From: Candidatus Hydrogenedentota bacterium
GTDB lineage: Bacteria > Hydrogenedentota > Hydrogenedentia > Hydrogenedentales > SLHB01
Assembly: GCA_016215105.1 (NCBI GenBank)
Contig: JACRLJ010000037.1
Span: 1-64,000 of the forward strand
DNA: 64,000 bases
Direction of reading: 5' to 3'
Below the pieces are notes generated by a model. It made no database searches. It was not told where the DNA came from and saw only the letters and a list, made by a program, of their open reading frames with translations. Both the position numbers and the translations under genes were made by a program. Of the stretch, positions 11,704-36,674 are shown in pieces (the stretch's first letter is position 1; each line of letters opens with the position of its first letter).

Positions 11704-12381
11704 TCAGCGGAGCATTGACCCCTTGTCCAGGCGATGCGTGATGGTTGCGTACGTAGATGCCTTCGGGTCGTGGGTGACCATGATCACCGTCTTCCCGAAG
11801 TCGCGGTTCAGCTTGCGAAGAATGGTGAGGACTTCCTCAGCCGAATGCGCATCCAAATCTCCAGTCGGTTCATCAGCGAGAATCATATTGGGATCGGTGA
11901 TCAGTGCGCGCGCGATAGCCACGCGCTGTTCCTGTCCGCCCGAAAGCTGCCGTGGATAGTGGGTCATACGGTCGCTCAACCCCACAATGTCCAGCGCGGT
12001 CCGCACGTGCTCCTCGCGTTCACGCCTGCTCAGGCTCGTTAGCAGTAGCGGCATCTCAACGTTTTCGAACGCCGTCAGCACCGGAATAAGGTTGAACGAC
12101 TGGAACACGAACCCAATGTGCTCGATACGCCATTCCGATAGCTCTTCTTCGTTCATGTCGCTGATTTCGTGATCCAACACCCAGCAGTCTCCGCTGGTGG
12201 GGTGATCGATCCCCGCAATGATATGAAGCAAGGTTGATTTGCCCGATCCCGATGGTCCCATCAGTGAGACGAACTCACCGGCCACGATGTCTAGATCGAT
12301 ATTGTCCAACGCGACGACATCCGTGCCGCCGTGAATGAAGGTCTTGCGCAAGTTCCGGATTTGAACGATTGGTCGTGCCAT
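11704..12381 (-). CDS. ABC transporter ATP-binding protein (MacB/LolD type)
   Basis: 225 residues. Walker [10 protein letters not shown] (42-50), ABC signature LSGGQEQR and Walker [13 protein letters not shown] are all intact. The GDLD after Walker B is typical of the MacB/LolD/FtsE group, whose permeases work by mechanotransmission. It is the last gene of a four-gene minus-strand operon, 18 bases after the adaptor gene, and supplies ATP hydrolysis for the two FtsX-like permeases. Confidence 0.95.
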
Positions 12382-12399
12382 GAATTCGAGCTATCCGTT

Positions 12400-23606: not shown

Positions 23607-25034
23607 GTGAGCAAGATTTCGATGAGCCGGAGGTCGTTCCTGGCGGCGAGTACGGCAGGGACAGTGATGACTTTGGCGGGCGCGGCGCCGGCGGCCAAGA
23701 AAGCGGCCGAAGCGCCTGCGGTGACGCCGAATACGGCCAAGGTCGTGCCGAGGAAGTTGTCGCCGAATGAGAAGTTGAACGTGGCGGCGATTGGCGCGGG
23801 CGGCAAGGGCTCGAGCGACATCATGAACTGTTCCAAGGAGAACGTCGTGGCGTTGTGCGACGTGGACTGGGAGCGCGCGGCGAAAACGTTCGAGCAATTC
23901 CCGAACGTGCCCAAGTACCGCGATTACCGCGTCATGCTCGAGAAGCATCCGGAGATTGACGCGGTGACGATTTCCACGCCGGACCATACGCATGCGCCGG
24001 CGGCGTACATGGCGATGAAGCTTGGCAAGCACGTCTATGTGCAGAAGCCGCTGACCCACACGGTGGCAGAGGCGCGCTTGTTGACCAATACGGCGCGCGA
24101 GATGGGCGTGGCGACGCAGATGGGGAACCAGGGCCATTCCGGCGACGGGGTCCGTGAGTTGTGCGAGATGATTGGGAAGGGGACGATTGGGCAGGTGCGC
24201 GAGGCGCACGTGTGGACGCATAGGCCGGTGTGGAAGAACCAAGGGTTTGGCGAACCGTTCCCGCCGCAAGTGACACCGGAGAACCTGGATTGGGACCGGT
24301 GGATCGGCGCGGCGCCGTGGCGTCCATACAACCATGCGTACTGTCCGCACGACTGGCGCGCGTGGCAGGACTTCGGCGGCGGATCGCTGGGTGACATGGC
24401 ATGTCATATCATGGATGCGGCCTACATGTCCTTGAAGCTCAAGGACGCGAAATTCTTCACGGTGGAAGTGGTCATGCAAAAGGGGCAGAACAAGCAGACG
24501 TTCCCGCTGACCTCGACGATCAAGTATTCGTTTCCGGCGCGAGGCGAGATGGGGCCGGTGGATGTGTACTGGTACGACGGTCACTGGCCGGGTCCGGACG
24601 GCAAAGAGATTTATAACCGTCCCAAGCGGCCCGCAGGCATTCCCGACAATTGCATCCTGGGCGACGACAACGCCAACGGGTCGTTCCTGGTGGGCGAGAA
24701 GGGCATCATCACGCAGGGCGAGTACGGCGGTAACCCGCGTCTTGTGCCGGATGACAAGATGAAAGACTTCAAGAAGCCCGATCCGTACTTGCCGCGCATA
24801 CCGGGTCAGGACCACGCGCAGAACTGGATCGCCGCGTGCAAGGGTGGCGAGCCGTCGTGCTCGAACTTCGACTACGCCGGGCCATTCACGGAGATGGTCA
24901 ATTTCGGAAACCTGGTGGTGAAGTCCGGCAAGAAACTGCGCTGGGACAACGTCAAAGGCGTGGTCACCAACGTGCGTCATGCGTCGGAGATCGTGAGTAA
25001 GGAATATCGCAAGGGCTGGGAGTTGCCGATATAG
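23607..25034 (+). CDS. Tat-exported Gfo/Idh/MocA family oxidoreductase
   Basis: 475 residues. A twin-arginine signal (MSRRSFLAASTAGTVMTL) starts the protein, so it should be exported folded with NAD(P) bound. The Rossmann domain follows (VAAIGAGGKGSSDIMN), then the conserved lysine motif (HVYVQKPLTH) in a slightly unusual Q-K-P form, and a C-terminal alpha/beta domain. The family oxidises sugar hydroxyls, often C3 of glycosides. It begins at GTG 23607 with GGGAG upstream. A DUF1080 protein and another Tat oxidoreductase follow, suggesting a 3-keto-glycoside route. Confidence 0.93.
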   Translation: MSKISMSRRSFLAASTAGTVMTLAGAAPAAKKAAEAPAVTPNTAKVVPRKLSPNEKLNVAAIGAGGKGSSDIMNCSKENVVALCDVDWERAAKTFEQFPNVPKYRDYRVMLEKHPEIDAVTISTPDHTHAPAAYMAMKLGKHVYVQKPLTHTVAEARLLTNTAREMGVATQMGNQGHSGDGVRELCEMIGKGTIGQVREAHVWTHRPVWKNQGFGEPFPPQVTPENLDWDRWIGAAPWRPYNHAYCPHDWRAWQDFGGGSLGDMACHIMDAAYMSLKLKDAKFFTVEVVMQKGQNKQTFPLTSTIKYSFPARGEMGPVDVYWYDGHWPGPDGKEIYNRPKRPAGIPDNCILGDDNANGSFLVGEKGIITQGEYGGNPRLVPDDKMKDFKKPDPYLPRIPGQDHAQNWIAACKGGEPSCSNFDYAGPFTEMVNFGNLVVKSGKKLRWDNVKGVVTNVRHASEIVSKEYRKGWELPI

Positions 25035-25097
25035 GAAGTCTCGCGCGCGCCGGTTTGCTGCACGCAGGCCGGCGCGCGGATGGAATTGAGAACAGAC

Positions 25098-25124
25098 AAT
25101 TAAGAATTAAGAATTAAGAATTAG
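25098..25124 (+). repeat. 7-base tandem repeat (AATTAAG, about 3.5 units)
   Basis: Three exact AATTAAG units and a partial fourth lie immediately before the ribosome site of the DUF1080 gene. The A+T-rich tract stands out in GC-rich DNA and may act as an upstream enhancer of translation or transcription. This is speculative. Confidence 0.6.
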
Positions 25125-25146
25125 GGGAGTGGGAGGGTCTGTGAGC

Positions 25147-26244
25147 ATGCTGGTTTCGCTGGTGGCGACTCTTGTGGCGTTGAGCGCGGCTCCGGAGGCG
25201 CCGTATCGCGATCTGCTCCAATCGATGGACGCCTGGGACCGTGTGGGCGGCGATGATGGTTCCTTCAAGTTCGATAACGGGGTGGTGAACTTTATTCAGA
25301 CCGGAAGCGAGCCCGCCGCGTTGTTGACGAAAGAGGACTACGAGAATTTCGAAATCGAGTTCGACTTTGAGTTCGGCGATTGGGTGGAATCCGGCCTGTA
25401 TATTCATGCGCCGCGTAATGGGGCGTATCGGGCTGGAATCGAAGTCGAGTTGGAGAGCCATCTTGGCGGCGTGACACCGATTAGCACGGGCGCAATCTTC
25501 CGTGTCGTGCCGCCCAAGGCCGCGTGGACGAAGAAGGACGATTGGAACACGTGTCACGTGTTGATGGACTGGCCGCGCTTGGTCGTTCATATCAATGGCA
25601 CGCTGATGCAGGACATAGACCTATCGACCCATGCCGATTTGCGGTATACGCTGCGCCGTGGCGCAATCGGGTTTCAGCACCAGGGGTGGAAGTTTGCGGT
25701 GCGCAACGTGCGTGTAAAGGCATTGCCGGATACCGAGCATGGCATCGCGTTGTTCAACGGCAAAGATTTGACCGGTTGGAAGCCGGTCGAGGGCAATGCC
25801 CAATGGCAGACGGACAATGGCGTTCTGTCGGTGACCAAAGGAAGCGGCTATCTCCAGCACGAAAAGGTCTGCAAGGATTTTGATTTGCGGTTGTACGTGC
25901 GCACGAAGCCAAACGCTAATGGCGGGGTGTTCTTCCGGTGGCCCGAAGGAGAACCCAAGGAACGCGGGCAGGAAGTTCAGATATTCGATTTCGTGGGCGC
26001 ATCCATGTGTACGGGGAGTGTGTACGGCGTGGCGCGGGCGGACGACCTCGGGTTGACGCCGGGGAAGTGGGAATTGCTGCAAGTACTTGCTCGGGGGAGT
26101 CACGTGGTGACGTTTATCAATGGCGTCAAAGGCGCGGAGACCGATAAGGTAACGGCATTGCAGCCCGGACATATTGTGCTGCAGGCGCATAAGGATGGGG
26201 CCACACTGGAGCACAAAGATATTGTGTTGGTTCCAGTGGAGTAA
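25147..26244 (+). CDS. Secreted protein with two DUF1080 (3-keto-disaccharide hydrolase-like) domains
   Basis: About 365 residues. A short hydrophobic leader (LVSLVATLVALSA) suggests export. Two concanavalin-like beta-sandwich units follow. The first runs about 17-195 (FEIEFDFEFGDWVESGLYIHAP). The second, about 200-365, starts with the family hallmark LFNGKDLTGWKP and includes GGVFFRWPEGEP. DUF1080 proteins include 3-keto-glycoside hydrolases or lyases working with Gfo/Idh/MocA oxidases. GTG starts at 25129 or 25141 are also possible. ATG 25147 was chosen because GGGAGGG lies nine bases upstream. Confidence 0.88.
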   Translation: MLVSLVATLVALSAAPEAPYRDLLQSMDAWDRVGGDDGSFKFDNGVVNFIQTGSEPAALLTKEDYENFEIEFDFEFGDWVESGLYIHAPRNGAYRAGIEVELESHLGGVTPISTGAIFRVVPPKAAWTKKDDWNTCHVLMDWPRLVVHINGTLMQDIDLSTHADLRYTLRRGAIGFQHQGWKFAVRNVRVKALPDTEHGIALFNGKDLTGWKPVEGNAQWQTDNGVLSVTKGSGYLQHEKVCKDFDLRLYVRTKPNANGGVFFRWPEGEPKERGQEVQIFDFVGASMCTGSVYGVARADDLGLTPGKWELLQVLARGSHVVTFINGVKGAETDKVTALQPGHIVLQAHKDGATLEHKDIVLVPVE

Positions 26245-26253
26245 TCAAATAGA

Positions 26254-26325
26254 TCGGACGCGTCTGACCAGTCTGACCAGTCAGACAAGTCAGACAAGTC
26301 AGACAGATCAGACGGCTCAGACAGA
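26254..26325 (+). repeat. 9-base tandem repeat (TCAGACAAG family, about 8 units)
   Basis: Contiguous 9-base units: TCTGACCAG twice, TCAGACAAG twice, then TCAGACAGA, TCAGACGGC, TCAGACAGA, with a degenerate first unit. It lies in the gap between the DUF1080 and second oxidoreductase genes. The 9-base period would be translated as a three-residue repeat, but no gene starts here. Confidence 0.85.
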
Positions 26326-26480
26326 TCTGCGGGGGGTGCCCGTTCTCCGAGGCGGCGTAAACATACCGGACGCATGGACCGGAGCGCGGCTCCGGACGTT
26401 GCATTTACGTTCCGCGATGGGCGATGCTGTGAGGCGATTTGTGGGGCGCATGCAGTTCGGAACGGACAAGGAGAGTACGG

Positions 26481-27668
26481 ATGGCGGGCACACGAAATCT
26501 GAGTCGGCGGACCTTTCTGGGAAATCTCGGCAAGACGGTGATCGGTGGCGCAGGCATCGCCGCTCTTGCGCCCGCGCGCAAGGCCCGGGCGGCGCGCGTG
26601 GGAACGAATGAGAAGGTTCGAATCGCGCTGATTGGGTGCGGGGGGATGGGGACTCGGCACCTTGAGGCGCTTGCTGTCAATCCTCAGTGCACTCTAGCCG
26701 CGGTGTGCGACGTGTTTACACCCCGCTACGAAGCGGCCATGAAAAAAGTCGAAGAAATGAGCGGAAAGAAACCCGACGGCTATCAAGACTTCCGCCGTGT
26801 TCTCGAGCGCGACGACATCGACGCGATATTCGCGCCCACGCCGGACCATTGGCACCCGCTGTTGACGATTCTGGGCTGCCAGGCCGGCAAGGACGTGTAC
26901 GTCGAAAAGCCGGCGTGTCCGACGGTGAAGGAAGGCCGCGCGATGGTTGAGGCGGCGCGGCGCTACGGACGCGTGGTGCAGGTGGGCACGCAGCAGCGGT
27001 CGATGCCGATATTCCAGAAGGCCATGGAAATTGTGCGCGGCGGACAGCTCGGTCCGATCACGTCGGCGACGGCGTGGGTGGGCGTCAACGCGTGGGGCGT
27101 GGGGGAAACGCCGGGGCCAATTCCGGACGGCCTGGATTGGGACCTCTGGCTTGGTCCGGCGCCGAAAGTGCCCTATTCGAAAGAACGCCAATTCGGGTTC
27201 ATGGGCTGGCACGACTACGCGCGGGGCGGGCAACTTACGAATTGGGGCGTTCATCTGATGGACATCGTTCAGTGGGGAATCGGCCAGGATCGGCCGCTCA
27301 GCGTTCAAGCCATTGGTGGCAGCTATCGTGGTGGCGCCGGGGCGCAGAATTACGAGACCATCGAGGCGATCTTTGAATACAAAGGCTGCAATGTGACGTG
27401 GGAGCAGCGGCACTCGAATTTATACCAGGACGGCCGTGGGTACGGGATGAAGTTCCAAGGAACCAAGGGACAACTGCTCGTGGATCGCAACACGTTCGAG
27501 GTGATCGCGGCCGAATCTCCGATTCCGAAGTATGTGGGCGAGCCGGAACGCAGCTGGGCGTGTCCGGAACACCACATCCACGACTGCCCCGTTGCTAGCG
27601 GGGATCGCGCTGAAGGTTCACCGGAAGTTGAATTGGGACGGGGACAGCGAAACGGTCATCGGCGATGA
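26481..27668 (+). CDS. Tat-exported Gfo/Idh/MocA oxidoreductase, C-terminus disrupted
   Basis: 395 residues as read from ATG 26481 (AAGGAG upstream). Tat signal LSRRTFLGNLGKTVIGG, Rossmann motif IALIGCGGMGTRH, and lysine motif VYVEKPACP are intact. After PEHHIHD (to about 27585) the frame departs from the family and stops at 27666-27668. The expected ending continues in another frame from about 27600 to the stop at 27718-27720, starting LAGIALKVHRKLNW and ending TRTYRAPWHL. Roughly 25 codons normally between these parts are missing, so the gene has suffered a deletion plus frameshift. The catalytic core may survive but the C-terminal strand exchange is lost. Full remnant: 26481-27720. Confidence 0.85.
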   Translation: MAGTRNLSRRTFLGNLGKTVIGGAGIAALAPARKARAARVGTNEKVRIALIGCGGMGTRHLEALAVNPQCTLAAVCDVFTPRYEAAMKKVEEMSGKKPDGYQDFRRVLERDDIDAIFAPTPDHWHPLLTILGCQAGKDVYVEKPACPTVKEGRAMVEAARRYGRVVQVGTQQRSMPIFQKAMEIVRGGQLGPITSATAWVGVNAWGVGETPGPIPDGLDWDLWLGPAPKVPYSKERQFGFMGWHDYARGGQLTNWGVHLMDIVQWGIGQDRPLSVQAIGGSYRGGAGAQNYETIEAIFEYKGCNVTWEQRHSNLYQDGRGYGMKFQGTKGQLLVDRNTFEVIAAESPIPKYVGEPERSWACPEHHIHDCPVASGDRAEGSPEVELGRGQRNGHRR

Positions 27669-27877: not shown

Positions 27878-29965
27878 ATGAGCAAACGTTTTCGATTTGA
27901 GTGCGCAATACTCGCGCTGGCTGCGCTGATGGCGGTTGCGGCGCGAGGAGCCGATGTTGATGGGCTTGTGCAGGCGTTGGGCGGGGATGATGAAATCGCC
28001 CGTTCGCAAGCGCGGCAATTCCTGGCGCGTGAAGGCGCCAACGCCGTTCCCAAGGTGCTTCCACTGCTCAGCAGTCCAGACGCGAATGTCTGGAACGCGG
28101 CGTTCAATGTGCTCGCTGACTTGGCCACCGCGGTGTCGACGCCGGGCCGTGAAGAAGAACGCGAGGCGGTTACGAACGATTTGATGACACTGGTGGCGCC
28201 GAGTCAGTCCGCCGAGATCAAGGAGCGCGGTCTGCGACTTTTACCGTTGGTGATTCCGGAGGGGCATAGTGTTGCGCCCGTAGCGGCTCTATTGAAGGAT
28301 CCGGAGTTGAAGGAGAAGGCTCGGGCGGCATTGCAGGAATCGGGCACGGCCGTGGCGTGTAAGGCGCTTGTCGCGGCGCTTTCCAAGGCGGGACCCGACT
28401 TCCAGTGCGCGCTGCTCAATTCGATTGGCGCGCTGCACAATGAGAAATCCGTATCGGCCGTGGCGCGGTATACGAAGAGTAAAGACGCGAAGGTTCGGGC
28501 CGCGGCGGCGCGGGCGTTGTCGTGGACCGGGTCCGCGGCGCGCGCCAAATCCGTCGAGACGGTCTATGGTAACGCGACACCGGATACCGCATTCGATGCG
28601 GCGGACGCGATGATTCGTCTGGCGGACGCGGCGGCGGTACGGCGGTCCGATCTTCAAACCGCGAATCGCATTTACCAGACGGTGCTGAAGACGGGAAAAG
28701 ACCGGACGGTACGTGGCGCGGCCTTGGTAGGCATGGCGCGTCATGGCGATGACGCCGCGGCCGAGGCAATTGTGTCCGCGTTGCGCGGGGACGACGGCCG
28801 CGAATTGGAGCCGATGGTTCTTGCGGCGTACGAGAATGCCAAGGGGCCAGCCGTCGTCAAATCCGCATTGGCGATTTATCCTCAGGTGTCGCGCGAGATG
28901 AAGATAGGCCTGCTTGGGGTGTTTGGACGCGCGCGCGCGCCGGAGTTTCTCGACGTGCTGAAGACGGCCTCGCAAGACGGCGACGCGACGGTACGGCGGA
29001 CGGCGTATGTGGCGCTCGCGGACTCGCAATTACCCGAGGCGGTGAACGCGCTGGCCAGCGCGGCAGGCACGGCGAATGTGGACGACAAATCGGTGGCGGT
29101 GAACGAACTCAAGCGCCTCGCGGCCACGCTGGAGGCCTCCGGTCACGATCAGGCCGCGGGCGCCGCTTACCTTGCGCTGTATCGTGTGGCGAACTCGAGC
29201 GAAATGCAGAAATTGGCGCTGATTGGCGTGGCGCGGCATCCGACGGCGGATTCCTCCGATACGCTCATAAAGGCAGCCATTGCGGGGGAATTAAAGGACG
29301 TCTCCGCGGCGACGTTGGCAAGTCTGGCGAAGAATCTGGCTGACGCCAAACGGACCGAGGAGGCAAACCAGATCGTGGCTCAATTGATGAACAAGGCGGT
29401 ATCGCCGGAAGCGATTGCCGACATCATCAAAGTCACGCAAGCGACGAAATCGGTACCGGACGTGGGACACCGTCTCGGGTTCGTGATGAAATGGACGCTC
29501 ACAGGCCCGTTCCCGTGGTCTCAGGCCGATGGATTCAAAGTGATTCGCGTGAATGAGCCGAACGTTGACCTGAAGGCGTCGTACAAGAGCGGCGGGAAAG
29601 ATATCGCGTGGAAGAAGTTCGACACGGCCGATCCCTCGGGTATCGTGGATCTCACGACGGCGCTGGGGGTGCAAGCCAACGCAACCGGATACGGTGTCGC
29701 GACGGTGACGGTTCCCGTCCCTACGGACGCCGTGGCGCGCATGGGATCGGACGATGGGATTAAGCTGTGGGTGAATAGCGCCGTGGCTCACGAGAACAAC
29801 ACGGACCGCGGAACACAGATAGACCAGGACAAGGCCCCGGTGAAGTTGAAAGCGGGCGTGAACACGCTGCTTGTCGAGGTTACCCAGGGCGGCGGTGGAT
29901 GGAACTTCTGTCTGCGGCTGACTGACAAGGACGGCAAGCCGCTCGCGTTCACGGAAGCTCCGTAG
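27878..29965 (+). CDS. Secreted HEAT-repeat protein with C-terminal beta-sandwich
   Basis: 695 residues. A signal peptide (about 1-24, ending AARGA) is followed by a long array of HEAT/armadillo-type helical pairs (about 25-530; for example AKVRAAAARALSWTGSAARAK and DATVRRTAYVALADS). The C-terminal domain (about 540-695) reads VARMGSDDGIKLWVNSAVAH and LKAGVNTLLVEVTQGGGGW, a PA14/jelly-roll-like pattern often sensing or binding glycans. No catalytic residues are evident. AAGGGAG precedes the ATG. The gene ends at a strong terminator. It may be a scaffold for the neighbouring exported enzymes. Confidence 0.88.
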   Translation: MSKRFRFECAILALAALMAVAARGADVDGLVQALGGDDEIARSQARQFLAREGANAVPKVLPLLSSPDANVWNAAFNVLADLATAVSTPGREEEREAVTNDLMTLVAPSQSAEIKERGLRLLPLVIPEGHSVAPVAALLKDPELKEKARAALQESGTAVACKALVAALSKAGPDFQCALLNSIGALHNEKSVSAVARYTKSKDAKVRAAAARALSWTGSAARAKSVETVYGNATPDTAFDAADAMIRLADAAAVRRSDLQTANRIYQTVLKTGKDRTVRGAALVGMARHGDDAAAEAIVSALRGDDGRELEPMVLAAYENAKGPAVVKSALAIYPQVSREMKIGLLGVFGRARAPEFLDVLKTASQDGDATVRRTAYVALADSQLPEAVNALASAAGTANVDDKSVAVNELKRLAATLEASGHDQAAGAAYLALYRVANSSEMQKLALIGVARHPTADSSDTLIKAAIAGELKDVSAATLASLAKNLADAKRTEEANQIVAQLMNKAVSPEAIADIIKVTQATKSVPDVGHRLGFVMKWTLTGPFPWSQADGFKVIRVNEPNVDLKASYKSGGKDIAWKKFDTADPSGIVDLTTALGVQANATGYGVATVTVPVPTDAVARMGSDDGIKLWVNSAVAHENNTDRGTQIDQDKAPVKLKAGVNTLLVEVTQGGGGWNFCLRLTDKDGKPLAFTEAP

Positions 29966-29986
29966 AGCAATTCAGTATTGGGAGTA

Positions 29987-30019
29987 GAAGAGGCGTCCAG
30001 GTTGGACGCCTCTTCTTTG
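29987..30019 (+). terminator. Intrinsic terminator of the HEAT-repeat gene
   Basis: A perfect 13-base-pair stem (29987-29999 with 30003-30015) around GGT is followed by TTTGT. It starts 22 bases after the stop codon at 29965. This is the most convincing terminator in the window. Confidence 0.85.
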
Positions 30020-30077
30020 TGAGCGCCGGATCTGCCGGCTTCTTTACGCGATGATAGGGCGTTTGGTTTGTGCGGGG

Positions 30078-30106
30078 CAGATTCTTCGCTTCGCTCAGAA
30101 TGACAT
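30078..30106 (-). repeat. HSERSEE-type dispersed repeat, copy 2
   Basis: The full-length form of the repeat, with its CAGATTCTTCGCTTCGCTCA core followed by GAATGACATG. It lies between the terminator at 29987 and the convergent transporter gene. The complement encodes CHSERSEES when translated, a common sign of this repeat family rather than of a protein. Confidence 0.75.
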
Positions 30107-30141
30107 GTACGCAGCGCCTGATCCATTTTGGGTGGTGGCGA

Positions 30142-32628
30142 CTACTTTTCGGATTCGTAATGGACCCACGTGCGAGAGATTCGCAATTGAAGCAGGGTCA
30201 ACGCGAGGACGATGGCGAATAAGACCCAGCCCAGCGCGGAGGCGTAGCCCATCTTCATGTAGCGGAATGCATTGTTGAACAGGTAGTAGACATAGAACAG
30301 CGACGAGTCGACCGGGCCGCCTTGGGTCATGATGAAGGCCTGGGTGAACATCTGGAACGTGCCGATAACGCCGACGATCAAGTTGAACAGAATGTAGGGA
30401 CTGAGCATGGGGATGGTGATGTGGATGAACTTGCGCCGGGCCCCTGCGCCGTCGAGTTCCGCGGCCTCGTACAACTGAACGGGGATGGCCTTGAGTCCGG
30501 CCAGCCAAATGATCATGCCGCCTCCCGCGCCCCAGAGGCCCATCAGAATCAGGGCGGGCTTGGACCAGTTTGGGTCGAGCAACCATGAGGGGCCGGGGAG
30601 GCCGGCCTTGGCCAGCAAGGTGTTGAGTATTCCCTCCCTCGGATTGAAGATCCAAATCCACAAGATCGAGCCGGCGACGGCGGGAAGGATCGAGGGGAGA
30701 TAGAAGAAGGTTCGGTAGATCGCGATCCCCTTGATTTCGCGGCTGAGCAGCATCGCCATTCCCAAACCGACGATCATTCCCAACGGGATACCCGCGACCA
30801 TAAACAGCGTATTCCCCATGGATTTATAGAACAGCGGATCACCGGAAAACATGGTGATGTAGTTGCGCAGTCCCGCGAACTTGGGCGGAGAAAGTACATC
30901 GTATTCCGAGAAACTCATGAGCAGTGAGAAGCATAACGGTCCGGCGCCGAACACCAGGAATCCAACAAACCATGGCGCGGCAAAGGCGTAACCGGCGTAC
31001 GCCTCGCGCCGGAAGTATCCATGCTGGCGAGGCCGGCCGAGGCGCCAGTAGGCGATGGCAAGCAGTGTCAGTACGACAGTAACATAGCACCAGACCAAGG
31101 GCTCCCAATGAATGACGGGCAGTTCTTCCGGATGGTAGAAGCGGTCCAGTTCGGCCTGCACCGGTGAAGTGTTCATATCGAGCGCAATCTGCGCGTTCCT
31201 GCCGATATCTAGCGGGTCGTACTTCTTATAGATGCCCTCGTTGAGCGCGCGCACCTGGGCCGTCCAGAGCATTTGGCCAACGGGGGTAATGGGAAGATGC
31301 TCCGAATAGGGCATGGCCTCTGAGAAAACGCGCATGGCGTTCTTATACTTGCCTTCGATTGTGGGGTCGTCGTAAAGATAGTGCGAGAACGCCCATTCGG
31401 TAATATCACGCCGTGCGCTGAACCAGGGGATGAATATCCTGCCTCCCGCTTGCGCAACCTGCCGGAGGGCGTCGGCGCGTATCTCGTACGCCCGCCGCGA
31501 CGCCATGTGCTTGATGAACTCCCAGGCGGCGTCGGGATGCTTCGCGCCTTTGGGCATGACCCACGACCAACCTGCGGACCAGCCGAGCGGTCTTTTCCCT
31601 TTCGGCGCGGGAGTCAGTACGACGCCGAATCGGAGGTCCCGTTTTTGCGCCGCAATCGTGTTCATGAATCCGTCGCCGTCGATTCGCATCGCGATTCGGC
31701 CTGAGAGAAACGGGTCGAGATCGCCGCCTTGGAGGCCGGTCTGGAAGGCGTTCACCTTCTGTGCGCCACCCATGAGATCGTAGATCTCGCTCATGAACAC
31801 CAGGGCCTCGACATTTTCCGTCGCGTTGAGGGTACAGGTTCTACCATCGGCGCTGAGGAAGGCGCCTCCGTTCAGCCAACTGAACATGTACAGCCATGAA
31901 TTGCCGAAGTTGGGGATGAAGCCGACGGACTGGAGGCGGCCATCGTTGTCCCGCTGCGTGAGGATTTCCGCGCAGGCTTTCAATTGGTCCCAGTCCCGCG
32001 GCGGGCCCGGTCTTGCGGGGTCGTCGCGTGACACGCATCCTGCCGCGATGAGTTGGGCGGCGTGCTTGTCGAAGATGTCCATGTTGTAGTAGAGGGCGCG
32101 ATTATCCGTGTCCGCGGGGATAGCGTAGACCTGTCCATCGAAGTTCACGTCGGCCCAGCAGGGCGCGAAGAATTGTTCGGGGCGCAGGGTGGCAGGATCG
32201 CCGGCGCGCTCGCGAATATCTCGGTCGAGAAACGGTTGTAGCGACTGGAACGCGCCTCGGGAGGCCATGCCGCCGACGGCGTAGCGGTTGAACCACACGA
32301 CGTCGGGCGGATCGCCACCGGCAATCGAGGTGAGAAGGCGTTGCGGATCGTCAATGTCGTTGATGGACGCCGTTTGCCCCATGATGACTTTGATGACGGG
32401 GGCGCCGTCCGAGCCGTCGTGGCGTTTTTCGAAATCCTGGATGATGTCGAGGGCGACGGCGTCCGACCCGCTGCCCCAGTAATACAAGGTCGTAGAATTG
32501 GCGGGCGAATTACTGGATTCGGCAAGGGCGCACAGGCAGCCGAATACCATCGCCACAGCCGCGAAGACCGATGAAAGGTATCGCGCCGCAGTCGAATTGC
32601 TCGGACTTACACACCTGTGGAAGCGCAT
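30142..32628 (-). CDS. ABC sugar importer: solute-binding protein fused to MalF-like permease
   Basis: 828 residues. A signal peptide or anchor (about 18-36) precedes a family-1 extracellular solute-binding domain (about 45-480; TLYYWGSGSDAVALDIIQDF, AWEFIKHMAS). A linker and membrane segment (VWCYVTVVLTLLAIAYW) follow. Then a complete MalF/UgpA-type permease (about 540-828) includes the EAA loop EAAELDGAGARRKFIHITIP, which contacts the ATPase. Normally the binding protein and permease are separate chains. No MalG-type partner or ATPase gene is adjacent, so these must come from elsewhere. The frame is continuous with no break at the junction. Confidence 0.93.
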   Translation of the reverse strand: MRFHRCVSPSNSTAARYLSSVFAAVAMVFGCLCALAESSNSPANSTTLYYWGSGSDAVALDIIQDFEKRHDGSDGAPVIKVIMGQTASINDIDDPQRLLTSIAGGDPPDVVWFNRYAVGGMASRGAFQSLQPFLDRDIRERAGDPATLRPEQFFAPCWADVNFDGQVYAIPADTDNRALYYNMDIFDKHAAQLIAAGCVSRDDPARPGPPRDWDQLKACAEILTQRDNDGRLQSVGFIPNFGNSWLYMFSWLNGGAFLSADGRTCTLNATENVEALVFMSEIYDLMGGAQKVNAFQTGLQGGDLDPFLSGRIAMRIDGDGFMNTIAAQKRDLRFGVVLTPAPKGKRPLGWSAGWSWVMPKGAKHPDAAWEFIKHMASRRAYEIRADALRQVAQAGGRIFIPWFSARRDITEWAFSHYLYDDPTIEGKYKNAMRVFSEAMPYSEHLPITPVGQMLWTAQVRALNEGIYKKYDPLDIGRNAQIALDMNTSPVQAELDRFYHPEELPVIHWEPLVWCYVTVVLTLLAIAYWRLGRPRQHGYFRREAYAGYAFAAPWFVGFLVFGAGPLCFSLLMSFSEYDVLSPPKFAGLRNYITMFSGDPLFYKSMGNTLFMVAGIPLGMIVGLGMAMLLSREIKGIAIYRTFFYLPSILPAVAGSILWIWIFNPREGILNTLLAKAGLPGPSWLLDPNWSKPALILMGLWGAGGGMIIWLAGLKAIPVQLYEAAELDGAGARRKFIHITIPMLSPYILFNLIVGVIGTFQMFTQAFIMTQGGPVDSSLFYVYYLFNNAFRYMKMGYASALGWVLFAIVLALTLLQLRISRTWVHYESEK

Positions 32629-32706
32629 AGGCCCTCCCTCGGGAGCATCCTACGAGGCGGGGCGAGTTAATGCAAGGATGCGCAGCACGCGGCGGCCGGA
32701 AATGGC

Positions 32707-32751
32707 ATGTAGGGCGTATAGGACCTATAGGACATATAAGACGTATAGGAA
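32707..32751 (+). repeat. 9-base tandem repeat (TATAGGAC family, about 5 units)
   Basis: Units GTATAGGAC, CTATAGGAC, ATATAAGAC and GTATAGGAA lie head to tail after a degenerate unit. They sit in the gap before the Nudix gene. The sequence differs from the 26254 array but the 9-base period is the same. Confidence 0.8.
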
Positions 32752-32819
32752 TACAGAGGATCGCGGTGCTTGGAGATCGGGAATAGACTTGGTATTCTGC
32801 GAGGAAGGAGGAGGGTATC

Positions 32820-33236
32820 GTGGAGTCAAAGCCGTTTGTGCTTTCGGTCAAGGCGCTCGTGCGGGATGCGGAAGGGCGCTATTTGGCGCTCAGGCGCGCT
32901 CCCGGATCGAATGCCAATGCGGGGAAGTGGGACTTTCCGGGGGGGAAGTTGGATGAGGGCGAAGGGCTGGAGGCGGGGTTGCTGCGTGAGGTCTTCGAGG
33001 AAACAGGACTCACGGTTTCGCTGGTACGGGTTGTGGGGGCGGCGCAATCGGATGCGCCGAAGCGCATCGTGGCGTACTTACTCATCGAGGCGCGGGTCGA
33101 GTCCGGCGAAGTCCGGCTGAGCGATGAGCACGACGAGTTCGCGTGGACACCGCGCGAGGAATTGCCCAAGGTGGACATGGTGGCGCAGTTCCGCGCCTTT
33201 GCAACGGAATTCGCGGTCCGGGCTCCGGGAGCATGA
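32820..33236 (+). CDS. Nudix hydrolase
   Basis: 138 residues. The Nudix box is complete at about 42-64: GKLDEGEGLEAGLLREVFEE followed by TGL. This fits hydrolases of nucleoside diphosphates linked to another moiety (MutT-like size). Substrate not evident. The start is GTG 32820, with GAAGGAGGAG immediately upstream. It converges with the sialate O-acetylesterase gene across a shared hairpin. Confidence 0.92.
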   Translation: MESKPFVLSVKALVRDAEGRYLALRRAPGSNANAGKWDFPGGKLDEGEGLEAGLLREVFEETGLTVSLVRVVGAAQSDAPKRIVAYLLIEARVESGEVRLSDEHDEFAWTPREELPKVDMVAQFRAFATEFAVRAPGA

Positions 33237-33264: not shown

Positions 33265-35307
33265 CTAGCGTTTCCCTTCCGTCATGCCCGTCCACTGGTC
33301 TGTCCGGAATGGAGTTGCAGGGAGTCCTTCAGCGTTGAACAGATTGCACACGGGGTTAATCGACCACGCGTAGCGTACCGCGACGGGGTTTGGGACCTTT
33401 GAACTGCTTACGATTACCGTCGCGCCGTCAATGCGCGCGTCGGCCCAGTGGAACTTCTGATCCGAACCCGCAATGGCGAATCCCTGTAGCGACGCCCCCT
33501 TGCACTGGAGCCCGCCTCCCACAGAATCGAAGCGAATGCGGATAGTCTGTCCCTCGACGCGCGACGATTTGTATATCGGCCCGCTGTACACGAGGCGTTC
33601 GCCGTACGCGATTCCGCGCGCGGCCAGCGCGAGCCGGCGTCCGACGTCTTGCTTATTGCGCGGATGAATCGTGTCCGCCTCGCCGATATCAATCGTCACC
33701 GCCATGCCGGTCTTGGGAAGGCTTAGCGTCATCAACTGCGCTTCGCGCAATTCCGCCCATTGATCGGGGATTGGCTCCGAGTTTGGCTTTAGGAAATTCG
33801 CCAACTGCACGTACAAGAAGGGGAAGTCTCCCTGACCCCAATGGCTGCGCCAGTCCGTGATCATCGCGGGAAACAGCGCCCGATACTGATAGGCGCGGCC
33901 GGCGTTGGATTCGCCCTGATACCAGATCGCGCCCCGAATCCCGAATGGGACGAGCGGCGCGATCATGGCGTTGTACAGCACCGTCGGCGCGCTGTAGTTG
34001 CCTAGACGGAATTCGGGCGCCTGCGGTTTCGGGGGAATCTTCGCGAGGTCGAGGCCCGGTTTGCAGCGCCACTCGCCGGCGAGTGAAATGCCGCCGGACT
34101 TGGCTTGGGACGCGGGGCGCAGCCACATGTCGTTGGCGATACCGCAAATCCCGCCCTTGTTGCCGATATCGTAAACGCGCACCGCGATCACCGCGCGGCC
34201 TGGCTTCACCAACTCGCCCGGCACATCGTATTCGCGCGGCTTCATCCAACCGGCCAGTAGTTCAAATTTGCCGACGAGAGCGCCGTTGAACCACGCGCGG
34301 TCCATATCATTGATGGTTCCCAAGCCGAGTTTGAGCGGCTGTCCATTCCAGCCGGGCGGAATGTCTACTTCCTTGCGCAACCACATGAAGCCATCCAGAT
34401 TCGGATAGCCGGCGTCTTCCCAATGGGTGGGCAAGTTCATTGGCTTCCAGTCGCCCGCGTCCAGTTTGGGCGCCGCCCAGGCTGGTTTTCCGTCCGCATA
34501 GCCCGCGTCACGTCCGTCCAACGCGGCATCCCACGCCGCGACGGCCTTCTCATACTCGGCTACGGCGCCCGCCGACTGCCGAATCATTTCGGGCATGCGG
34601 ACGATCATGTCGTGGTAGTCAGGCAGCGCGCTCAACGCGTCCGCGCTGGTCCACGCTTCGGCCGGTGTGCCTCCCACCGAGCTATTGATTAGGCCAACGG
34701 GCACGCCGGTACGCGCTTGGAGTTCGCGGCCGAAGAAATAACCGACCGCCGAAAACACCTTCGCAGTTTCCGGGGTACACTCCCGCCAGGACACGCCCTG
34801 TAGGTCGTCCTTCGGCGTGAAACTCGTCGCGGGCGCGACCGTCATCAGCCGTATGGCAGGGTTGTTCGCCGTAGCCAGTTCCTTTTCTACGTTGAACACG
34901 GCCTCCGGCCCCGGCTGGAGGGTCATGGCCATGTTCGACTGGCCCGAACACAGCCAGACGTCGCCCACCATCACGTTCTTGAACGTCACGGTGTCTTGTC
35001 CGGAAACTGTTAGCGTGTACGGGCCGCCTGCGGACAAGGGGCCCAGTTTCGCTGTCCATTTTCCATCAGGGCCCGCTACCGCGCGCGCGGTGTGCGAGTC
35101 CAGTTGCACGGTGACCGAGCCACCTGGCGCGGCCCAGCCCCAGATGGGCGTCTTGATTCCTCGCTGAAGCACCATGTTGTCGGCGAAGATTCCCGCGACT
35201 CGTACGTTGGTTGCTGGTGCATTGCTGTGTGAGCCGGGCGTGGTTTGGCAAGCGGCGAATAGTACGGTCAGGATCACGCCTAGGGCTATCATTCGGTAAT
35301 TGCGCAT
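33265..35307 (-). CDS. Sialate O-acetylesterase-like lipoprotein
   Basis: 680 residues. A lipobox LFAAC places the lipidated Cys at residue 20, so it is probably periplasmic or outer-membrane attached. N-terminal beta domain; SGNH core with nucleophile Ser124 in [20 protein letters not shown], and a catalytic Asp/His in [10 protein letters not shown]. An inserted beta-sandwich ([18 protein letters not shown]) is typical of the long DUF303/SASA enzymes. It removes acetyl groups from sialic acids or other acetylated sugars. AAGGAAG precedes the ATG. Confidence 0.93.
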
Positions 35308-35654: not shown

Positions 35655-36674
35655 ATGAGGAGCGTTGGACTGGGATTGATTGGCGCCGGGGGATGGGGGG
35701 CTATGCATGCGCGGACGTATGCGGCGGTTGACGGGGCGCGTTTGTACGGTGTGGCGGACCCGGCGGTTGATCGGGCGAGGGCGCTTGCGGAGCCATACCA
35801 GGCTCGCGCCTATGCTGACTACCATGAGCTACTGAAAGACGACCGCATCGAGGCCGTGTCGATTGTGACGCCGGACTTTGCGCACGAGGAACCGATCCTG
35901 GCAGCGGCGCGGGCGGGCAAACACATCTTGGCCGAGAAGCCGTTGGCGATGACCGTTGAGGCGTGCGAGCGGATACTCGAAGTGGTCGAAAAGGCCGGGG
36001 TAAAATTGATGGTGGATTTCCATGCGCGGTGGAGTCCGCCGCTGTATAAGGCGCGGGACGCGATACGCAACGGCGAACTGGGCGCGGTGCAGCATGTTTA
36101 CTATCGACTGAATGACCGTATCTTCGTGCCGACGGAGATGCTTTGGTGGGCCGCTAAGTCGACAGTGATGTGGTTTGTCGGCAGCCATACGATTGACACG
36201 GTGCGCTGGCTGCTGGGCGAGGAAGTGCGGCGGGTATACGCCGTATCTCGGAAAGAAGTGTTGAAGGCGCGGGGCATTGATACGCCCGACTATTATCTCG
36301 CCACCCTGGAATTCGCTTCGGGCGCCACAGCGGTCATTGAGAATTCGTGGATATTGCCGAATTCGACACCGAGCTTGGTTGATGTGAAATGCGAAGTCGC
36401 CGGCAGCAAAGGGGCGATCTACATCGACGCGACCCACAACCGCGCGTTGGAGAAGTACACGGAATCCGAGGCGGGCTTTCCGGACATCCTGGTCATGCCG
36501 TCGCTGTACGGCCGCCAGCAGGGCTTCGCGGCGGAGAGCATTCGTCATTTCATCGAGTGCGTGCGTGACGACCGTACGCCAATGGTTACCGGGCGCGACG
36601 GCCTGGAAGTGACCAAGGTGATCTGCGCCATCGAGGATTCAGTTCGATCGCGACAGCCGGTGGAGCTGGCATGA
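35655..36674 (+). CDS. Gfo/Idh/MocA family oxidoreductase (cytosolic)
   Basis: 339 residues with no Tat or other signal, unlike the two paralogues at 23607 and 26481. NAD-binding GLIGAGGWGAMHART starts at residue 7; the lysine motif is ILAEKPLAM. The substrate-domain motif FVGSHTIDTVRWLLG supplies the usual Asp/His pair. Probably an inositol or sugar dehydrogenase acting on imported monosaccharide. GAGAGGAG precedes the ATG. Confidence 0.92.
   Translation: MRSVGLGLIGAGGWGAMHARTYAAVDGARLYGVADPAVDRARALAEPYQARAYADYHELLKDDRIEAVSIVTPDFAHEEPILAAARAGKHILAEKPLAMTVEACERILEVVEKAGVKLMVDFHARWSPPLYKARDAIRNGELGAVQHVYYRLNDRIFVPTEMLWWAAKSTVMWFVGSHTIDTVRWLLGEEVRRVYAVSRKEVLKARGIDTPDYYLATLEFASGATAVIENSWILPNSTPSLVDVKCEVAGSKGAIYIDATHNRALEKYTESEAGFPDILVMPSLYGRQQGFAAESIRHFIECVRDDRTPMVTGRDGLEVTKVICAIEDSVRSRQPVELA

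Follow-up and report, generated by a model that had tools for sequence, protein, structure and literature searches.

A binding protein–MalF fusion of Hydrogenedentota that may draw on a shared MalG

CUT1 sugar importers operate by capture, docking and ATP-driven import, the standard cycle established for MalEFGK2; in E. coli the P2 loop of MalF docks the binding protein. Fused importers of the GlnPQ/OpuA type carry an SBP_bac_3 or OpuAC binding domain and have a homodimeric permease with two receptor copies. Fusions of a solute-binding protein (SBP) to a permease are already known, as the available excerpts on GlnPQ and OpuA describe, and excerpts of PMC7658222 report that ATPase sharing among CUT1 importers is experimentally established for MsmX and MsmK. 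In the accessible text of the open PubMed Central literature (subscription journals lie outside it) we found no description of a MalG shared by several SBP–MalF fusions, nor of a CUT1 SBP–MalF fusion, a long MalG insert or MalG-less copies. Neither such a fusion nor a shared MalG is named in the excerpts of PMC8276074, PMC3654945, PMC10866078 and PMC7658222.

The fused chain and its surroundings

The gene lies in a 64-kb window, the whole stretch of 64,000 nucleotides analysed, from a Hydrogenedentota assembly (G000) that is 95.2% complete in 171 contigs. According to an earlier note, a single chain combines a binding domain with a full MalF-type permease, the linker between them containing a membrane helix; Pfam, hydropathy, the AlphaFold2 model and the EAA loop all bear this out (Table 1).

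Table 1. The fusion gene and its parts, in window positions
Feature	Residues	Positions	Strand	Basis or remark
SBP–MalF fusion gene	828 aa	30142..32628	(-)	ATG at 32628, stop at 30142; profile searches
Signal peptide-like N-terminal segment	1-36	32521..32628	(-)	Hydropathy
Sugar-binding domain	~45-466	31231..32496	(-)	Pfam, AF2, Foldseek
Added transmembrane helix TM0	~508-530	31039..31107	(-)	Hydropathy, AF2; links N-out binding domain to N-in permease
MalF-type permease domain	~538-819	30172..31017	(-)	Pfam, NCBIfam, PDB search, AF2
EAA loop	712-740	30409..30495	(-)	E721 A722 A723, G727 and P740 nearly invariant

Pfam places SBP_bac_1 on residues 87-380 (E 2e-31) and BPD_transp_1 on residues 613-815 (E 1.1e-12). 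The binding-domain families among its matches are SBP_bac_1 and SBP_bac_8 only, neither SBP_bac_3 nor OpuAC being present; the chain thus holds the SBP_bac_1/8-type binding domain and the MalF-type permease with EAA loop of a CUT1 importer. The closest NCBIfam models are UgpA, GlcT and MalF, every one below its equivalog cut-off. In a PDB search the N-terminal half resembles MBP1 (4r9f, E 2.9e-27; the entry title gives a mannobiose complex) and the C-terminal half mycobacterial SugA (7cad) and MalF. The top Foldseek match of the binding domain is also 4r9f (CpMnBP1 with mannobiose).

Hydropathy shows a signal-like segment at residues 18-36 and then, ahead of six permease helices, a single extra helix at 510-528; the order of parts in the AF2 model (pLDDT 79.7, alignment of 38 sequences) agrees, with weak stretches in the MalF region. 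The linker, whose topology the earlier note had marked for checking, has by these predictions one added helix. On our reading of the sequence the signal peptide would be cut after ALA, and helix count would place the EAA loop and the positively charged stretch after TM0 on the cytoplasmic side.

The permease profile finds no permease domain in the 64-kb window besides that of the fusion, in keeping with the claim that no MalG is encoded beside it; of the 30 permease seed loci, nine were left out for stops in the excised stretch and three (L016, L027, L028) by choice. The same holds for MalK: the window ABC ATPase examined (11704-12387) is LolD/MacB-like, and the only OB_MalK of the genome sits on another contig (C154, L051:6004-7107). 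Two single permeases elsewhere were rejected as partners; that at C159:93570, ~61 kb off, is SsuC/TauC/SaoP-like and that on C130 is ModB-like. A promoter and terminator scan of 29900-32900 gave no usable match. Upstream of the fusion, and encoded on its strand, is a carbohydrate esterase of SASA type that also has a GH2 sugar-binding domain (33265-35307, (-)), with a NUDIX gene on the opposite strand in between. Three GFO/IDH/MocA oxidoreductases and one 3-keto-disaccharide hydrolase family protein are also found near the fusion (23607-27668 and 35655-36674).

Occurrence of the fusion and of its MalG

Other proteins of the same order were sought in a one-per-species scan of named public genomes, and SBP and permease share one frame at 50 of the 61 loci. 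The remaining 11 comprise a fragment at a contig end (L169), a broken frame (L174) and nine loci where the domains lie in separate genes or just one of them occurs (L173, L175-L182). Independent reads with a stop/start between the two parts were named by the earlier note as the observation that would overturn the fusion. The 828-aa frame has no internal stops; since the relatives carry the same fusion in one frame, a sequencing or assembly artefact joining two genes is ruled out, practically beyond doubt. By the labels of the MAG records, matching loci occur in Hydrogenedentota, Kiritimatiellota, Verrucomicrobiota, Lentisphaerota, Planctomycetota, Omnitrophota, Poribacteria, Chlamydiota, Fibrobacterota and others. 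Within the phylum itself 61 of 68 genomes match the fusion query at E 1e-10, many through the permease half alone, and all 40 long-frame loci picked there are fusions. Directly downstream of these 40 is a MalG-type gene (30), a contig edge (6) or neither (4). For the 53 fusions of the named loci, an overlapping set, the corresponding numbers are 29, 18 and 6, with L160 counted among the six because its MalG frame is broken. Judged by these sequences, the fusion belongs to a family that is widespread across Hydrogenedentota and PVC-like lineages and whose members usually have a MalG gene next to them. The earlier interpretation therefore stands as to architecture and partner-less locus and was incomplete in missing this family and its usual neighbour.

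The MalG adjoining close relatives of the fusion has ~557-560 aa: TM1 is followed by a conserved periplasmic insert of ~290 aa (residues ~45-330), after which the permease continues from TM2. Pfam recognises the permease part and, in three proteins searched, gives no match on the insert at E up to 10. In the AF2 model of the MalG from genome G044 (pLDDT 82.7, 27 sequences) the insert is helical at residues 81-163 and beta-rich at 168-324. The framework of this model resembles E. coli MalG (VIA Z 17.5, rmsd 3.5, 260 aligned), and for the whole model the best 50 Foldseek and best 50 VIA-align matches are permease domains.

Profile matches in the genome of the window number 54 for PF00528, 26 for PF01547 and one for OB_MalK. 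Its other fused SBP–permease frames are 64% (contig C85), 59% (C4) and 41% (C96) identical to the window copy (contig C159), and that on C15 is 39% identical over the aligned part. A MalG lies downstream of the C85, C96 and C15 fusions; none follows the window copy or the C4 copy. The C85 fusion, its 5′ end cut by the contig start, has a stop that overlaps the start of a 557-aa MalG (L033:1598-3271), which is the only long MalG among the matches listed, against three close fusions. The genome-wide search for partners that the earlier note had proposed thus yields one matching long MalG and, on C154, one UgpC/MalK-like ATPase adjoining a frame read as galactokinase; a MalG-type partner and a MalK-type ATPase with OB regulatory domain, as in a CUT1 importer, are both encoded outside the locus. 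One OB_MalK ATPase per genome appears to be the rule in the phylum despite many CUT1 systems (n = 68: one in 54, two in 2, none in 12 including G044). We also note on C160 (L032:4303-8940) a 1522-aa chain with binding domain, MalF-like and MalG-like parts, nearly a complete importer in one polypeptide.

Nineteen genomes, picked from the named loci, were searched for the arrangement of fusion and long MalG. In 12 one fusion adjoins one long MalG (its frame broken in G082), and in G074 the fusion adjoins a MalG and is cut. The sole close fusion and sole long MalG of G068 are on different contigs, as are fusion and MalG in G073, possibly by a contig break; in G069 ~10 kb separates the two, which are encoded on opposite strands. 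In G070, G071 and G072 one MalG lies between two fusions, and G071 has an additional pair. In G041 and G040 a more distantly related fusion subfamily is likewise located away from its MalG. The loci L149, L151 and L158, from MAGs labelled Chlamydiota or unclassified, show one long MalG between two SBP–MalF fusions.

Clades of fusions lacking an adjacent MalG

We took as close fusions those of at least 53% identity and as long MalGs those of at least 45% identity reaching into the insert. Counted by eye among the matches listed, close fusions occur in at least 27 genomes, 26 of which also have a long MalG, and no genome has the MalG alone; the exception, G019, has its fusion as a fragment at a contig end. 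Three close fusions and one long MalG are listed for each of G000, G044 and G046, the latter two each having one MalG-linked and two MalG-less fusions. G049 and G065 are each listed with two close fusions and one long MalG; in both, the second copy is truncated where its contig stops. As the genomes are fragmented assemblies (~1130 contigs in G044), a second MalG may be absent from them by incompleteness.

A tree of 38 rows, built by a quick method with SH-aLRT support only, groups the MalG-less copies in two clades, O1 (G044_C407, G046_C499, G049_C308 and G000_C4; SH-aLRT 99) and O2 (the window copy, G044_C252 and G046_C449; SH-aLRT 97). G049_C308, cut at the contig end, is counted as an orphan on the ground that only one long MalG is listed for G049. 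The ends of G049:C110 and G049:C308 share 37 identical bases and then diverge (61 bases at 92%); C110 is, from this overlap, likely the continuation of C308. On this tree the orphan clades are common to three genera, or four with the copy cut by a contig end. The permease and long-MalG profiles matched only the fusion itself in the window and the orphan loci. For G044_C252, 1.4 kb is available downstream and is filled by an opposite-strand frame. The window orphan and its G044 orthologue have no neighbours in common. In G046 a GH9-type gene with beta-propeller repeats (L124:4497-7973) lies ~21 bases upstream of the O2 orphan; a MalK gene and frames that we interpret as galE and galK are nearby.

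The MalF part is 74-76% identical whether copies are compared inside O1, O2 and a set of four linked copies or from one of these groups to another, and for the binding domain (residues 46-400) the figure is 59-70%. Near-invariant columns were defined on 25 MalG-linked rows (two of them, G065_C275 and G018_C88, are cut and their partner is unseen). In an orphan clade, 9 of 130 such columns are shifted in the binding domain and 0 of 128 in MalF, a difference with a pooled Fisher p of 0.003 that is not significant per clade (p 0.12 and 0.06). Eight MalG-linked control groups show 0 to 4 MalF shifts (zero in two of the eight), and the absence of shifts in the orphans is thus compatible with ordinary conservation. 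Between the window copy and its G044 orthologue dN/dS is ~0.13 for the binding domain (dN 0.19, dS 1.44) and ~0.12 for MalF (dN 0.165, dS 1.34), with dS near saturation in both. By this measure the orphan fusion is under purifying selection. As these comparisons read, the oddity of the window copy is its MalG-less status, conserved in orthologues, more than the fusion itself.

Proposed assembly and known systems

It seems to us fairly probable that the fusion is an exchangeable SBP–MalF half-transporter whose MalG and MalK partners are supplied in trans and are shared. Export of the N terminus would put the binding domain in the periplasm, and the added helix would lead the chain back across the membrane, leaving the six-helix MalF core in its normal N-in orientation. 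This half of a CUT1-type sugar importer would pair with a MalG from elsewhere, most likely the long MalG of C85, and import would be powered by the single MalK of C154 as MalK2. Substrate, which we infer to be an oligosaccharide (the nearest structural neighbour of the binding domain binds mannobiose, at only 25% identity), would be captured in the periplasm by the tethered domain, which would dock on MalF/MalG before ATP-driven import. The periplasmic insert of the C85 MalG probably helps this docking, comparable to the MalF P2 loop. If the partner is MalG there would be one tethered binding domain per transporter. For access to this MalG the fusion would have rivals in its close paralogues on C85 and C4, each with a binding specificity of its own. 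That MalG is supplied in trans and shared is suggested by copy number, clade persistence and the conserved MalF; the window copy, with no adjacent MalG gene, probably borrows its other half and its motor from elsewhere in the genome. The fusions and MalGs that lie apart in other genomes, the fusions paired around one MalG and the established sharing of CUT1 ATPases also speak for this reading; against it count the fragmented assemblies, the lack of an OB_MalK match in G044 and 11 other genomes, the differing gene neighbours of the window and G044 orphans, and the weak stretches in the MalF region of the model.

The orphan could instead form a homodimer, (SBP–MalF)2 with MalK2; each transporter would then carry two binding domains, like GlnPQ and OpuA, and have no need of MalG. 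Such an assembly would account for the absence of MalG beside the orphan, and importers with fused receptors exist, as the excerpts on GlnPQ and OpuA attest. We nevertheless think it unlikely, as the MalF columns are neither relaxed nor shifted relative to MalG-linked copies and every orphan-bearing genome has, among the matches listed, a matching MalG, whose presence argues against a homodimeric permease with two receptor copies. Pairing with an ordinary short MalG of another CUT1 operon has a similarly low likelihood: several short MalG-like permeases are present in the genome, but where a close fusion has a permease beside it, that permease is the long-insert MalG, and the short ones go with more distant MalF types. 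That the orphan has ceased to be a transporter, and is now a sugar sensor anchored in the membrane or a duplicate in decay, appears very improbable. Its separation from the partner gene fits this; set against it are the complete EAA loop, the intact frame, dN/dS of ~0.12-0.13, persistence in three genera and the lack of any signalling domain in the Pfam search of the fusion.

We return to the shared half-transporter. A broader proposal, to which we give even weight for and against, is that the Hydrogenedentota importer is modular: several SBP–MalF halves would compete for a single MalG bearing a periplasmic docking domain and for the one MalK that serves the whole genome, and substrate range would change when the fused subunit is swapped. 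The MalG insert is a concrete candidate for that docking domain. If sharing is true, half of the CUT1 translocation pathway would be exchangeable, which to our knowledge has not been shown before; the seemingly incomplete transporters of many uncultured genomes would then have an explanation, and such loci would be annotated differently.

The system resembles CUT1 importers (MalEFGK2, UgpBAEC, LpqY-SugABC) in its SBP_bac_1 domain, its MalF/UgpA-type permease with EAA loop, its MalG and its MalK with OB domain. It differs in that an added helix joins the binding domain covalently to MalF, MalG has a periplasmic TM1-TM2 insert and the genes are scattered. Covalent fusion of binding domain and permease, tethering the receptor, is shared with GlnPQ, OpuA and EgtU, whereas here the binding domain is of another family and a MalF/MalG heterodimer, with one such domain per transporter, is expected. 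As with the multitask ATPases MsmX and MsmK, one MalK-type ATPase would serve many CUT1 systems; here the permease subunit MalG seems to be shared as well. Group II ECF transporters, with exchangeable substrate-binding membrane subunits on one shared module, offer an analogy only, their architecture being unrelated and homology not claimed; if the modular reading is true, the Hydrogenedentota system would be their type I importer analogue.
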